64,000 nt of DNA from Nitrospirales bacterium. Lineage in GTDB: Bacteria; Nitrospirota; Nitrospiria; Nitrospirales; UBA8639. This document shows positions 5,736 to 21,092 of the stretch, one piece after another. Below the pieces are notes generated by a model. That model had not been told where the DNA came from. It made no database searches and saw nothing but the letters and a program-made list of their open reading frames with translations. Position 1 is the first letter of the stretch. Each line of letters opens with the position of its first letter. The position numbers and the translations under genes are program-made. Where the stretch lies: NCBI GenBank assembly GCA_022828225.1, contig JAJEJG010000013.1, positions 310,001-374,000 of the forward strand. The letters are read 5' to 3'.

Positions 5736-6557
5736 CTAATCCGGCGTGCTTGTTGTCCATTCCTGTTTCCACTCGAACACGTTGCGTTCGATGAAGACGA
5801 AGGCGGCGATCCAGAGAAAGGCGTCCCAGAAATCGAGAAAGGTGCCGAAGAGTCCCCAATATCCCGCGGCGGCCACGACAACGGCATAGAGCGGATACTT
5901 GGCGAGCCGGCTTGCGGTGGCAAACCAGCCCGGGAATAACCCTTTGACGTCAGGCCGCACGTCAAGCTCCAACAAGGCCACGATCAGGAGCCAGGTGCCG
6001 GAGTTCACGACGTCCACCCAGGCCAGCCGGGTCGCCTGCGCCAGCGCGCCGGCTTCGGCCAGTGTCCGGGTCTGCTCGTTGACGAACAGTACTCCGGTGA
6101 GCCCGGCACAGTTGCCCGCGGTCAGGGTCCGGTATTCGTCGAGTCCAACGAGCAAGGAGAACGGCTGCATCGCAAAGGCGCAGGCGTCCGCGACGCCGGC
6201 CGGCACGTACAAGCCGAAGCCGAGCGCCTTGCCGAGATAGCCGGTAAAGGCATACACGATGACCACATAGCATAGAACACGAAGGCCCCTGATGACGGTG
6301 CCGATGGGGCGTGCCAATATTTCCTCGGAAAGCTGGCAGGTTTCAAGTTCGAACAGCAGCAACAGGATCACCCACGCGGCGGTGTCGATGCTGGCCGCAA
6401 ACCCTTCGATGATCCGCGCGAACGGCAGGCCGTCTTGAAAGACGTGGGCGGCCGCTTCCCACTCGTCCTTGAAGAACAGCGCCACGTTGGCGATCAGCGC
6501 CGCGTACACCAGAAATTTGACAACGGAAAACCAATCGCGTCTGTTCATGTGGAGCAT
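5736..6557 (-). CDS. Multi-pass inner-membrane protein, unknown function
   Basis: This protein of 273 residues has about six hydrophobic segments, near residues 12-28, 52-70, 88-106, 165-180, 205-225 and 230-245. The first loop holds FFKDEWEAAAHVF, and an acidic ELETCQLSEE stretch follows the second segment. I recognise no domain. The ATG at 6557 is one option; a second ATG three codons later gives MNRRDWFSVVKF. It is divergent from the MEMO-family gene and flanked by repeats on both sides. Confidence 0.65.
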   Translation of the reverse strand: MLHMNRRDWFSVVKFLVYAALIANVALFFKDEWEAAAHVFQDGLPFARIIEGFAASIDTAAWVILLLLFELETCQLSEEILARPIGTVIRGLRVLCYVVIVYAFTGYLGKALGFGLYVPAGVADACAFAMQPFSLLVGLDEYRTLTAGNCAGLTGVLFVNEQTRTLAEAGALAQATRLAWVDVVNSGTWLLIVALLELDVRPDVKGLFPGWFATASRLAKYPLYAVVVAAAGYWGLFGTFLDFWDAFLWIAAFVFIERNVFEWKQEWTTSTPD

Positions 6558-10581: not shown

Positions 10582-11412
10582 ATGGCAACCAGAGCCCGGA
10601 TAAAACCCAAAGCCAAGGGGAAGAAGTCGGGACGGTCCGCATCCACGGCAAAGCCCAAGGCATCGAAGCCCAAGGCAAAGGCTTCCCCTTCGACTTCGCT
10701 CAGGGCAGGCTCAGCCAAAGCGAAACCGGCCAAGTCCGCGAAAAAAGTTGCGCTCACGTCCAGGAAGGCGAAGCCGGCTTCGCCGAAAAAGAAGGCGAAG
10801 ACTGCGATAAAGAAGAAGACCGCCAAGAAGGCGACGGTAAAGAAAGTTGCCGCAAAGAAAGCGGTTGTCAAGAAGACTGCCGTGAAGAAAGCGGCGGCCA
10901 AGCCCGCGCAAAAACGTCCGGTCAAGGGAAAAACGACGGCGGCGGTCAAGACGAAAAAGGTTGTCGCCAAGAAACCGGTCGCCAAGAAAACTGCCGTAAA
11001 AAAACCGGCGACGAAGCCCGCGCAAAAACGTCCGGCCACAAAGAAACCGGTTGCGAGCCCCAAAAAGGCGACGAAGCCCGCCCCGATACCTGAAACCAAG
11101 GCCGCAACGGCGGTGGCGAACTTGGCGCCTGCTGCAGTGGAAGAGGTGGCTGCAGACGTTGCGCTCGAGTCAATTGATTCGGATTTGTCCGGATTCGATG
11201 ATGAAACGGCCGATGAGTTTTCCGCCGATCTCGACGATGACATCACCGGTGACATTGCCGCCGACTTTGATGAAGACGCGGGATTCGGTCCCCTTGCCGA
11301 AGACCACGATGATGACCTGACGGAAGATTTGTCCGAGGAGTTGGAAGCCGAGAAGTATTTCAGGGAAGCGGAAGCAGGGTTGGATGACGACGATTTGCCC
11401 CGTGGGTGGTAA
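10582..11412 (+). CDS. Lys/Ala-rich histone H1-like protein with an acidic C-terminal tail
   Basis: This encodes 276 residues. Residues 1-175 are almost only K, A, P, T, V and R in repeated AKKTAVKKPA-like units, as in bacterial histone H1-like proteins that bind DNA. Residues 195-270 are very acidic (DDETADEFSADLDDD and DDDLTEDLSEELEAE). A short interspersed repeat is translated in frame at residues 36-45 (PSTSLRAGSA). The strong ribosome site AGGAGG lies at 10568-10573. Opposite charges at the two ends suggest self-association or charge-tuned DNA binding; that is inference. Confidence 0.75.
   Translation: MATRARIKPKAKGKKSGRSASTAKPKASKPKAKASPSTSLRAGSAKAKPAKSAKKVALTSRKAKPASPKKKAKTAIKKKTAKKATVKKVAAKKAVVKKTAVKKAAAKPAQKRPVKGKTTAAVKTKKVVAKKPVAKKTAVKKPATKPAQKRPATKKPVASPKKATKPAPIPETKAATAVANLAPAAVEEVAADVALESIDSDLSGFDDETADEFSADLDDDITGDIAADFDEDAGFGPLAEDHDDDLTEDLSEELEAEKYFREAEAGLDDDDLPRGW
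10686..10715 (-). repeat. Short TCGACTTCGCTCAGG-type repeat, in frame in the Lys-rich gene
   Basis: CCTTCGACTTCGCTCAGGGC plus AGGCT is the same unit, in the other orientation, as at 16165-16190 in scpB and 36421-36450 in hflX. It is translated as STSLRAGS and does not break the frame. Confidence 0.75.
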
Positions 11413-12187: not shown

Positions 12188-12293
12188 GTCATCCTCGATC
12201 CTCGATTAAGAACGTCAAGGACAAGCTATTTGTAATCGAGGATCCAGCGTCTTTCAGTTCCCCTCCTTTGTAAGGAGGGGCAAGGGGAGGTAG
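12188..12293. repeat. TGTCATCCTCG element followed by a CCCCTCC hairpin
   Basis: Bases 12188-12255 are a variant of the two-arm TGTCATTCCCG element, and 12258-12293 are a CCCCTCC hairpin ending GGTAGAAG. The gap 12132-12488 holds these repeats, a GTAG REP near 12368 and the 23-bp direct repeats described separately. I see no gene in it. Confidence 0.65.
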
Positions 12294-12367
12294 AAGCCTT
12301 CGTAGCCGAATGATTCCCGCTAGGCAGCACAGGAGCCGTCCCCTACGGGGCAATGATGTCTCCTCAT

Positions 12368-12393: not shown

Positions 12394-12409
12394 ATGCGCC
12401 ATTACCTTT

Positions 12410-12501
12410 CAATCAGCCGTTATTGAAACTTTCAAATAGCCGAAGTTAAAACTTGCAATCAGCCGACACTTAACGTTACAATCAGCCGATGGCTGATCAA
12501 G
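12410..12501 (+). promoter_or_regulatory. Four direct repeats with an exact 23-bp period, ending at a start codon
   Basis: CAATCAGCCG occurs at 12410, 12456 and 12479, with a two-mismatch copy (CAAATAGCCG) at 12433, so the spacing is 23 bp each time. The 13-bp spacers of the first three units also resemble each other (TTGAAACTT, TTAAAACTT, TTAACGTT). The last unit runs into the ATG at 12489, and with codons 2-3 forms the inverted repeat ATCAGCC-GAT-GGCTGAT (12481-12497). This looks like an array of protein-binding sites (iterons or operators). Confidence 0.75.
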
Positions 12502-13835
12502 CGTTCTATTCGCGTTACGTCGAGCGCCGGCTAAGCGAGGCGTTGGAAGATTCACCGGTCATATTGATCCAGGGGCCGAGACAGTGCGGCAAGACAACGC
12601 TCGCCCAAATGGTGTGCGCTCCACGGCATCTGACCCGTGATGAAGATCGTTTGCCCCAACGTGGTCCTTCCCGGCGCTCTTTGCCCGCCAAAAATCGAGA
12701 CTATACCTACGTCAGCTTCGACGATGCGGTCGCCCGCATTGCTGCTGAGACCGACCCGATGGGCTTTGTCGCCGACCTGCCGGAACGGGTCATCCTGGAC
12801 GAGGTCCAGCGCGTCCCTGCACTCTTTGCCACCTTGAAAATGGAAGTCGATCGCAGGCGCGTGCCGGGTCGTTTCGTGTTGACGGGCTCAACCAACGTGC
12901 TGCGCGTTCCGACGATTCAGGACTCGTTGGCGGGTCGCTTGGAAGTGGTGCGTTTGCACCCGCTGGCGCAGGGTGAAATCGCTGGTCAGAGGCCTCCGGT
13001 TGAGAACGTTCGGCAGTCCCTCGGCTTTCTCGACGCCCTGTTCGGCAAGGGATTCAAACTACGGCGGACTGAACGGTTGGGCAAGGAGGTATGCGAGCGC
13101 ATCGTTGCGGGTGGCTATCCGGCCGCCCTCGTTCGGCCACCCGGCCGCCGTCGCGCCAACTGGTATCGCAACTATCTCGACGCGCAGACACAACGGGACG
13201 TGCGCGACTTGGCACGTATCAGCACGCTGGAAGCGCTCCCGAGGTTGCTCGCGTTGGCGGCTGCGCAAACGGCGCAACTGCTCAACGTGAGCGATCTGGC
13301 CGCGCCGTTCCAACTCAGCCGGCCCACTATTCAGGATTACGTCGCGCTGCTGGAGCGGGTATTCCTGTTGGAGCGGCTCCCGCCGTGGCACAGCAATCGT
13401 CTGAGCCGTCTGGTCAAGACGCCGAAACTGCACGTTGGAGACACGGGCCTTGCGTGTGCGTTGCTCGGGGTGGATGCGGCCGCCCTCGCCGCCGATCGGA
13501 CGTTGCTGGGTCAACTCCTGGAAACGTTCGTGTTCCAGGAGTTGACCCGTCAGGCAAGTTGGCACGAGGAGGCCTTCACGTTCTTCCACTATCGTGACCG
13601 GGACAAAGTGGAGGTGGACATCGTCATCGAGCGTGGGACGCAGGCCGTTGCGGGAATAGAGGTAAAGGCCGGAGCGACCGTCACGCAGGCGGATTTGCGC
13701 GGCTTGCGCAAGCTGAAAGCCGCAACGGGCCGCCGGTTCGCCGGGGGCGTGGTGGTGTATGACGGAGAGACTTGTGTGAGCTACGGTGATAGACTTTACG
13801 CGGTGCCGCTCCGCCTGCTTTGGGAGACGCCGTGA
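12489..13835 (+). CDS. AAA-14/DUF4143 ATPase
   Basis: This encodes 448 residues. The N-terminal P-loop domain has Walker A GPRQCGKT (residues 29-36) and Walker B VILDEVQ (101-107), followed by LTGSTNVL as a sensor. The C-terminal half has the DUF4143 layout: RDVRDLARIS, a winged-helix-like SRPTIQDYVALLERVFLLERLPPW, and a nuclease-fold block with FFHYRDRDKVEVDIVIERG and AGIEVKAGATV, which recall PD-(D/E)XK residues. The cellular role of these proteins is poorly known. About 25 residues (45-70) between Walker A and the next strand look inserted. The 23-bp repeats abut the start codon and there is no ribosome site. Confidence 0.88.
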   Translation: MADQAFYSRYVERRLSEALEDSPVILIQGPRQCGKTTLAQMVCAPRHLTRDEDRLPQRGPSRRSLPAKNRDYTYVSFDDAVARIAAETDPMGFVADLPERVILDEVQRVPALFATLKMEVDRRRVPGRFVLTGSTNVLRVPTIQDSLAGRLEVVRLHPLAQGEIAGQRPPVENVRQSLGFLDALFGKGFKLRRTERLGKEVCERIVAGGYPAALVRPPGRRRANWYRNYLDAQTQRDVRDLARISTLEALPRLLALAAAQTAQLLNVSDLAAPFQLSRPTIQDYVALLERVFLLERLPPWHSNRLSRLVKTPKLHVGDTGLACALLGVDAAALAADRTLLGQLLETFVFQELTRQASWHEEAFTFFHYRDRDKVEVDIVIERGTQAVAGIEVKAGATVTQADLRGLRKLKAATGRRFAGGVVVYDGETCVSYGDRLYAVPLRLLWETP

Positions 13836-13889
13836 TACGTATCACCAAATCCGTGGTCGAAGACGCTGCTTGGTAATATACGATAATTT

Positions 13890-13926
13890 CTCTACCTCCC
13901 CTTCGCCCCTCCTTACACAGGAGGGG
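13890..13926. repeat. CCCCTCC hairpin repeat (inverted orientation)
   Basis: CTCTACCTCCCC is followed by CGCCCCTCCTTAC-ACAGGAGGGG. It is one unit of the REPIN-like family, 21 bases before the start chosen for the next gene. Confidence 0.65.
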
Positions 13927-13947
13927 ATGGAGACAAGGCATTTCCCT

Positions 13948-15054: not shown

Positions 15055-15299
15055 GACAGGCACGGGAGCCTGTCCCTACATAATGCCAAATCCACAATAT
15101 ATAGAAGTTTCTGTTGTTTCTCTCCACTAAAAGTGGTATACAAAGTATGGCAACCTTGCGCGTTCCTTTTTTTCTTTTCCTCCCCTTTGTAAGGGGAGGT
15201 CAGGTGGGGTAGAGCCACCCTTCCGTAGCGCACGGGTTTTCGCCATCCCAGTTGCAGTCTCTACCTCCCCTCGCCCCTCCTTACAAAGGAGGAGAACAG
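15055..15299. repeat. GTAG REP hairpin plus REPIN-like CCCCTCC pair before scpA
   Basis: Bases 15056-15080 (CAGGCACGGGAGCCTGTCC and CTAC) are a GTAG-type REP in minus orientation. Bases 15178-15215 and 15258-15294 are the two inverted arms of a CCCCTCC pair (CCTCCCCTTTGTAAGGGG, and CTCTACCTCCCC to GGAGG). The 265-bp gap before scpA holds nothing else that I can assign. Confidence 0.65.
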
Positions 15300-15316
15300 A
15301 AGTTGCCGGTGGCATC

Positions 15317-17182: not shown

Positions 17183-17380
17183 ATGGCAACGGCTAAGAGC
17201 GAAGCGCTGAAGATGATTCAAAATCTTCCTGACGATATAACGACTGGCGTGATCATGGAGGAACTGTTTTTTAAGCAGCAGGTGGAGAAGGGGCTTCAAG
17301 ATGTCGCCGAAGGGCATGTGGTCAGCCATGAAGAATTAAAAGAAAGAATCGCTCGATGGCGAAACTCCGTTGGTCGCTGA
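17183..17380 (+). CDS. Antitoxin partner of a RelE/ParE toxin
   Basis: This small protein of 65 residues (ATAKSEALKMIQNLPDDITT at the N-terminus, then helices ending KERIARWRNSVGR) has a strong AGGAGGAG ribosome site. It overlaps the toxin gene by 25 bases, the standard antitoxin-first arrangement. The pattern EALKMIQNLPDDIT followed by IMEELFFKQQVEKGL is typical of small antitoxins paired with RelE/ParE toxins, though I cannot name the exact subfamily. The C-terminal helix should wrap the toxin. Confidence 0.8.
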   Translation: MATAKSEALKMIQNLPDDITTGVIMEELFFKQQVEKGLQDVAEGHVVSHEELKERIARWRNSVGR

Positions 17381-17673
17381 CCGCCGGAAACGATCTGCGG
17401 GATATCGAAGATTTTATTGCGAGAGATTCTGTACTGCACGCGGTCACATTTGCCGATCGCATTCTCGAAACTGCCGAACAAGTCCTCAGCACACCCAATC
17501 TCGGTCGTATCGTTCCAGAGTTCAAGCGCGAAAACCTCCGAGAGGTCATTTTCAGAGGATATCGCATTGTCTATCTGCTCCGGAACGAGGAGATCATCAT
17601 TCTTCGCGTCGTGCATGGTGCACGAGATTTGCGTGACCTTGTTCATCGGGAGCCGTGGGATATTTCTCCCTAG
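17356..17673 (+). CDS. RelE/ParE-family toxin
   Basis: This protein of 105 residues shows the ParE-type pattern: LRWSLTAGNDLRDIEDFIAR, then AVTFADRILETAEQVL, NLGRIVPEF, LREVIFRGYRIVYLL and ILRVVHGARDLRDL. In this fold, ParE members poison DNA gyrase and RelE members cleave mRNA at the ribosome. The GYRIVY and HGARDL motifs look more like ParE. It overlaps the antitoxin and precedes the intact oxidoreductase gene by 48 bases. Confidence 0.9.
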   Translation: MAKLRWSLTAGNDLRDIEDFIARDSVLHAVTFADRILETAEQVLSTPNLGRIVPEFKRENLREVIFRGYRIVYLLRNEEIIILRVVHGARDLRDLVHREPWDISP

Positions 17674-20983: not shown

Positions 20984-21002
20984 GAAGTGAAGTTGTTGCG
21001 GA

Positions 21003-21092
21003 ACATAGCAAAAACATAGCAAACATAGCATGAAACATAGCATTTCATAGCAATAATAGCAAAAACATAGCAGGCCATAGCAAGACATAGCA
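21003..21092 (+). repeat. Degenerate tandem ACATAGCA microsatellite
   Basis: ATAGC(A) occurs nine times in 90 bases (first at 21005, last near 21085), usually as ACATAGCA, with spacers of 3-6 bases. No open frame of interest uses it. It is much more A-rich than its surroundings and lies just after the MoaD-like gene. Confidence 0.8.

Follow-up and report, generated by a model that had tools for sequence, protein, structure and literature searches.

A direct-repeat array embedded in the promoter of a DUF4143 ATPase gene as a candidate operator for the protein's own winged helix

The window analysed here is a stretch of 64,000 nucleotides from a Nitrospirales bacterium (contig JAJEJG010000013.1), and the coordinates given below refer to it. 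A plus-strand gene at 12489-13835 encodes an AAA_14 and DUF4143 ATPase of 448 aa whose best PADLOC match is the candidate defence family PDC-S01. It is immediately preceded by four 13-bp units of the form TTnCAAnYAGCCG, which recur on the same strand with a period of exactly 23 bp and span 12407-12488. The four are unit 1 (12407-12419, TTTCAATCAGCCG), the diverged unit 2 (12430-12442, TTTCAAATAGCCG), unit 3 (12453-12465, TTGCAATCAGCCG), which includes a -35-like hexamer, and unit 4 (12476-12488, TTACAATCAGCCG), which includes a -10-like hexamer and adjoins the start codon. An earlier sequence-only reading had placed copies of the core motif CAATCAGCCG at 12410, 12456 and 12479 and a diverged one (CAAATAGCCG) at 12433, with the last unit abutting the start; the spacings are indeed 23, 23 and 23 bp, and unit 4 ends at 12488, one base before the ATG at 12489.

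When the region is aligned with itself, the best lag is 23, with a score of 29, whereas the highest score among 60 shuffled versions was 12. The array is present once in the genome (2.36 Mb). It goes unreported by Tandem Repeats Finder because the spacers have diverged. A CRISPR array was considered and rejected: the units of about 13 bp diverge from each other, the spacers of about 10 bp resemble one another, and a promoter lies inside the array. The same reading had noted a 17-bp inverted repeat across the start codon (12481-12497, plus strand, ATCAGCC-GAT-GGCTGAT), which is present in the window and is retained in the nearest relatives only, being intact in L045, carrying one mismatch in L043, L044 and L047, and absent from L048, L049 and L054. 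A start-codon hairpin was accordingly rejected as a conserved feature, and, judged from these alignments, the inverted repeat is probably incidental.

Several other elements were recorded in the window. Dispersed inverted repeats of the CCCCTCCTTTGTAAGGAGGGG type occur at 12258-12294, 13886-13927 and 15258-15302, and elsewhere in congeners too; two of them flank the array and gene in opposite orientation. A small ORF at 17356-17673 has the look of a RelE/ParE-type toxin, and a Lys/Ala-rich repeat ORF at 10582-11412 resembles histone H1-like proteins and has internal repeats that differ between congeners. At 21002-21092, nine copies of AACATAGCAA, about 10 bp each, stand in tandem. The genome has seven DUF4143 genes, one of which (L039, C1:251752-252219) has an internal TAG in its reading frame.

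A sigma-70-type promoter scan of the plus strand predicts a -35 hexamer, TTGCAA, at 12453-12458 in unit 3 and, after an 18-bp spacer, a -10 hexamer, TACAAT, at 12477-12482 in unit 4, that is, 12 to 7 bp before the ATG; both are consensus matches only, and TTGCAA is a weak -35. The -10 assignment is consistent with the way in which the last unit differs from the others, since among representatives TA precedes CAAT in 11 of 17 last units versus 5 of 46 other units (p = 5e-5; p = 2e-8 when all loci are counted). Across 75 family representatives, with start codons set by rule, the starts of -10-like hexamers peak at -12 and those of -35-like hexamers at -35, and Shine-Dalgarno-like sites are few, which points to transcripts that start at the start codon. 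The -10 of the window lies exactly at the family peak, -12, and its message is expected from the sequence to begin at the ATG and thus to be leaderless. In clades whose units recur every 22 bp, the array is set 20-30 bp farther upstream, leaving space for a short leader. The array would therefore act as DNA, because it falls outside the message in both the 22-bp and the 23-bp types. The units overlap the promoter of the gene that they precede, which is the arrangement of an autoregulatory operator, the promoter being defined by consensus only.

This position makes it hardly credible that the repeats act in RNA, as an attenuator or CRISPR-like guide, since the transcript is predicted to begin at or after the array. 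Equally hard to credit is a role as replication iterons, for which the one parallel is a contig listed as viral (L271), where four CAATCAGCCG-containing repeats at intervals of 22-24 bp (6155-6211) lie beside the gene of an RPA-family replication initiator. The repeats of that contig look like plasmid iterons in which the motif match is coincidental; at the locus studied here there is no initiator gene, and the location is chromosomal, with ordinary flanking genes.

The protein belongs to the DUF4143 and AAA_14 families by Pfam (PF13635, 164.5 bits against a cut-off of 28.1; PF13173, 80.2 bits against a cut-off of 27), and the PADLOC model PDLC04790 (PDC-S01) matches residues 67-447 with E = 9e-160. 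An AlphaFold2 model with a mean pLDDT of 89.5 consists of an AAA core, with Walker A motif GPRQCGKT (residues 29-36, 12573-12596), a winged helix-turn-helix (residues 249-297, 13233-13379, mostly with a pLDDT above 90) and a PD-(D/E)XK-like domain. The predicted recognition helix of the winged helix comprises residues 278-290 (RPTIQDYVALLER, 13320-13358), and the motif of the last domain is made up of E375, D377, E391 and K393 (13611-13667). All of these features are encoded on the plus strand. A comparison of 94 proteins showed that E345, E375 and D377 are invariant and that E391 and K393 are kept in at least 90%; the conserved PD-(D/E)XK residues sit in the model on the strands 375-382 and 386-393. 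From the alignment and the model, the C-terminal domain is a putative nuclease of the PD-(D/E)XK-like type.

A sequence search of the PDB returned nothing beyond weak P-loop matches. The AAA core together with the winged helix superposes on 2qen (Z 16.2, 255 residues, rmsd 4.5), on 2fna (Z 15.6, 251 residues, rmsd 3.2) and on CED-4 (Z 14.0, 258 residues, rmsd 4.6), and likewise on NLRs and Avs5. The arrangement of an AAA core followed by a C-terminal winged helix is that of STAND ATPases, at the level of the fold only. Many STAND proteins, though by no means every one, have C-terminal sensor repeats. TPR, LRR and WD40 repeats are absent from the chain, which ends in the DUF4143/PD-(D/E)XK-like domain; the ATPase is therefore classed only as sharing the STAND-type fold.

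Relatives were collected from a reference-genome scan, which gave 50, and from 296 genomes of the same phylum, which gave many more, and 112 further loci were read upstream. Among loci with a recognition helix of the S-R-P-T type, to which the window belongs, 30 of 33 have at least three units (CANNYRGMCG) at 22 or 23 bp and 19 of 33 have at least four, whereas shuffling the upstream sequences of related loci produced chains of three or more in 3 of 6600 cases; in the representatives, the interval between units is 22 or 23 bp in 45 of 46 instances. The array is thus neither a product of chance nor a local peculiarity. The sequence-only reading had stated that a specific link would be unlikely if homologues lacked the array, and homologues do carry it, although in three members of the helix class (L014, L015 and L051) the arrays are weak or undetected. 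Carriers of the window's helix class come from the Nitrospirota, Binatia, Latescibacteria, Dehalococcoidia and Pseudomonadota. Leucothrix arctica and Pseudidiomarina are culturable carriers of an array, and Thermus HB27 is a culturable member of the palindromic class. Many of the loci come from metagenome bins, and the cross-phylum claim also rests on two whole-chromosome records, L047 and L048. In at least one case, identical 6.3-kb stretches (L045 and L046) were binned as Binatia and as Alphaproteobacteria, so that one of these bins is probably contaminated.

Relatives with other recognition helices have other repeats at the same period: ACGATTGGACG in the Gemmatimonadetes, TCCGGATTGGACG in L018, L020 and L021, and GCGGCAGAACGACC and GCGACCAAACGAAC in actinobacteria; alphaproteobacterial plasmid relatives carry TTTCAATTGGTCGA and TTTAAATTGGACG arrays. 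Many distant DUF4143 members have palindromes at the promoter position of the array, between -35 and -10. These palindromes, together with the other DUF4143 genes of the window's own genome, which have no significant array, rule out the 22/23-bp array as a universal DUF4143 trait. A two-unit array was also seen some 100 bp upstream of a gene whose product has SLFN_AlbA_2 and RecG-C-like domains (L282 in genome G261); it may be a relic, or else another family uses the same operator. This array, and a solitary one in genome G187 described below, count against the operator reading proposed here.

Viral decoys of the array were considered and rejected. A unit-pair pattern matched 50 viral contigs once each, which is about chance by a hand estimate, longer chains were mostly spurious, and a stricter pattern gave no match. 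No relative of the ATPase was found among viral contigs, and five distant relatives (24-30% identity) were found in phage records. No convincing resemblance to the array was seen in plasmid DNA.

The array and the gene travel together. The nucleotide similarity between the window and L043/L044 (84%) extends only from 12402 to 13832-13872, and L045/L047 and L052/L053 show the same pattern. In the congener L147, the segment 12398-13968, comprising the array, the gene and about 130 bp 3' of it, is absent and 12397 is joined to 13969. The peroxiredoxin and pentapeptide-repeat genes that border the cassette lie next to each other in congeners, with neither array nor ATPase between them. Array and gene are one transferred cassette, which has entered unrelated surroundings and phyla jointly. 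The possibility of a mobile unit had been raised from the sequence alone, and it holds as far as horizontal transfer is concerned; active mobility does not follow, as neither a mobility enzyme nor a terminal repeat came to light.

Arrays without the gene were also observed. At the same chromosomal place in another congener (L144:2435-2532, G185), four units are followed by a decayed start, the ATPase gene having been deleted just after its start codon, and a three-unit array around position 1500 of L281 (G187) has no DUF4143 gene within 1.5 kb and is surrounded by HigA-like and Phd/RelB-like antitoxin ORFs. Insertion-sequence ends were considered as an explanation of these relic arrays and discarded, as neither a transposase nor terminal repeats lie beside them. 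Gene-less arrays, the 5' boundary of the cassette at the array, its presence or absence among congeners and its repeated transfer across phyla would all suit a site of recombination or homing, at which the ATPase-nuclease moves the cassette and the overlap with the promoter is secondary. We regard this as very unlikely: comparison by eye of the occupied locus with empty sites revealed no target-site duplication or terminal inverted repeats, no partner array was seen on the 3' side, an array followed by a decayed gene start fits deletion, and distant relatives have an operator in place of an array.

Since array and gene enter unrelated surroundings together, the simplest source of the array's reader is the cassette itself. 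A regulator encoded by the host is distinctly improbable, despite the precedent of RptR, a repressor that acts on the promoter of a type I restriction-modification locus in a defence island by way of three direct repeats (PMC12255303): no regulator gene was observed to travel with the cassette on its way through unrelated surroundings and phyla, and the similarity between promoters follows the winged helix of the ATPase. The latter relation was obtained by correcting for overall identity and asking from which protein region the similarity of promoters can then be predicted, with representatives less than 65% identical and pairs below 45%. When all 25-residue windows were scanned against the 50 bp before the start, the best were 259-283 and 253-277, both in the winged helix, with a family-wise permutation frequency of 2-3 per 1000 (p about 0.003), this being the second of two choices of region and uncorrected for the tree. 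With 90 bp upstream, the top windows again lay in the winged helix, at a family-wise p of 0.15-0.40, which is not significant and also lacks tree correction. The preplanned recognition-helix window alone was matched by 108 of 5000 permutations, again with no correction for the tree. The 50-bp comparison, short of proof as the second of two choices, supports statistically that similarity of the winged helix tracks similarity of the operator.

Individual pairs point in the same direction. Among distant pairs of about 40% identity, L105 (STLKRY) shares its operator with L031, L027 and L017 (TTLRRY, STLKRY and TTLKRY, respectively). Loci with PT[AVT]HRY helices have AATGA..TCATT in 5 of 9 cases versus 1 of 188 others; a Thermus member examined afterwards, TT_P0211, which shares about half of its residues with members examined before it, combines the helix SQPTVHRY with GAATGACTATCATTC directly before its ATG. 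The pairs outside these counts were judged by eye: TTLKRY and STLKRY helices tend to pair with GGTTRA, VNTxKAW helices with TTTGCAT, and VSTAKEW helices with ATTTACGAT or ATCGTAAAT.

Taken together, the array probably serves as the operator of its downstream gene, to which the ATPase binds through its own winged helix and so represses its promoter, a reading built on sequence comparison. Phased binding and self-control had been suggested earlier from the repeats themselves, and the promoter inside the array, the joint movement of array and gene and the covariation of winged helix and promoter now lend weight to both, the binding itself being inferred. The winged helix, placed between the STAND-type ATPase core and the PD-(D/E)XK-like domain, would bind the repeated units. 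The inner two units bear the -35 and the -10, with a transcript predicted from the ATG, or from about 30 nt upstream of it in the 22-bp clades, and a row of bound protein over them would therefore exclude RNA polymerase. The outcome would be negative autoregulation in which the upstream units are filled cooperatively, both the sign and the cooperativity being our proposal. More speculatively, the level of a defence ATPase-nuclease might in this way stay low until the protein is stripped from the array by invading DNA or by a change in nucleotide state.

The ATPase might instead bind the array and activate its own promoter, or activate from the outer units and repress from the inner ones. Two of the four units do lie upstream of the -35, where activators frequently bind, and the predicted -35 is weak, but the gene-proximal units cover the -35 and the -10, as a repressor would, and the palindromes of distant members occupy the same place, between the two hexamers; activation or dual control thus seems unlikely. 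An extension of the repressor reading, possible yet rather doubtful, is that the array serves as a resting scaffold of a STAND-type defence ATPase-nuclease too. Binding to its own repeats would both shut off the gene and store the enzyme at rest, so that release by invading DNA or by a change in nucleotide state would bring derepression and activation together. If true, the whole defence unit would come down to one gene with some 90 bp of DNA, passed from phylum to phylum as a single cassette.

Few prokaryotic defence candidates are as common as the DUF4143 ATPases (PDC-S01; PMC12988326), which have no mechanism assigned and almost no literature among the papers searched. The conserved, promoter-embedded operator, apparently read by the protein's own winged helix, is a first candidate for a specific DNA ligand. 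It would indicate the region of the protein that is turned towards DNA and could serve as a reporter in a search for the derepressing signal, and a relation between helix and operator that holds across the family would allow operators to be predicted from protein sequence. No earlier description of such arrays was found in the open, non-preprint papers searched on DUF4143, PDC-S01 and AAA_14.

Among known systems, the closest is PDC-S01 itself, whose model the window protein matches; it is described as a very common prokaryotic candidate, an ATPase with a PD-(D/E)XK domain, from a set for most of which validation is pending (PMC12988326). The literature searched gave no description of a cis element or of regulation for this family. 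For the DUF4143 gene TT_P0211 of Thermus, a 6.6-fold rise with plasmid was reported only when Argonaute was present (PMC4406477), a response that is suggestive at most. At the RptR locus, too, a defence-type promoter contains direct repeats, which in that case are repressor-bound (PMC12255303). RptR differs in being a separate, small regulator whose site is a 6-bp palindrome, whereas here the ATPase is the proposed reader and the units are longer and spaced at 22/23 bp. Toxin-antitoxin operons are autoregulated, their product binding an operator over its own promoter. The same relation between a product and its own promoter is proposed here, but with one gene, no antitoxin and an ATPase-nuclease as the putative repressor. 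As a working model for multimers that cooperatively occupy direct repeats in a promoter, BldC and similar proteins offer a parallel (PMC5859096), although the protein is unrelated and the repeats are different. Finally, the archaeal STAND ATPases 2qen and 2fna, CED-4, NLRs and Avs5 share the AAA core and winged helix with the window protein, which differs from them in having no repeat sensor, in its C-terminal PD-(D/E)XK-like domain and in a winged helix that is proposed to read DNA.
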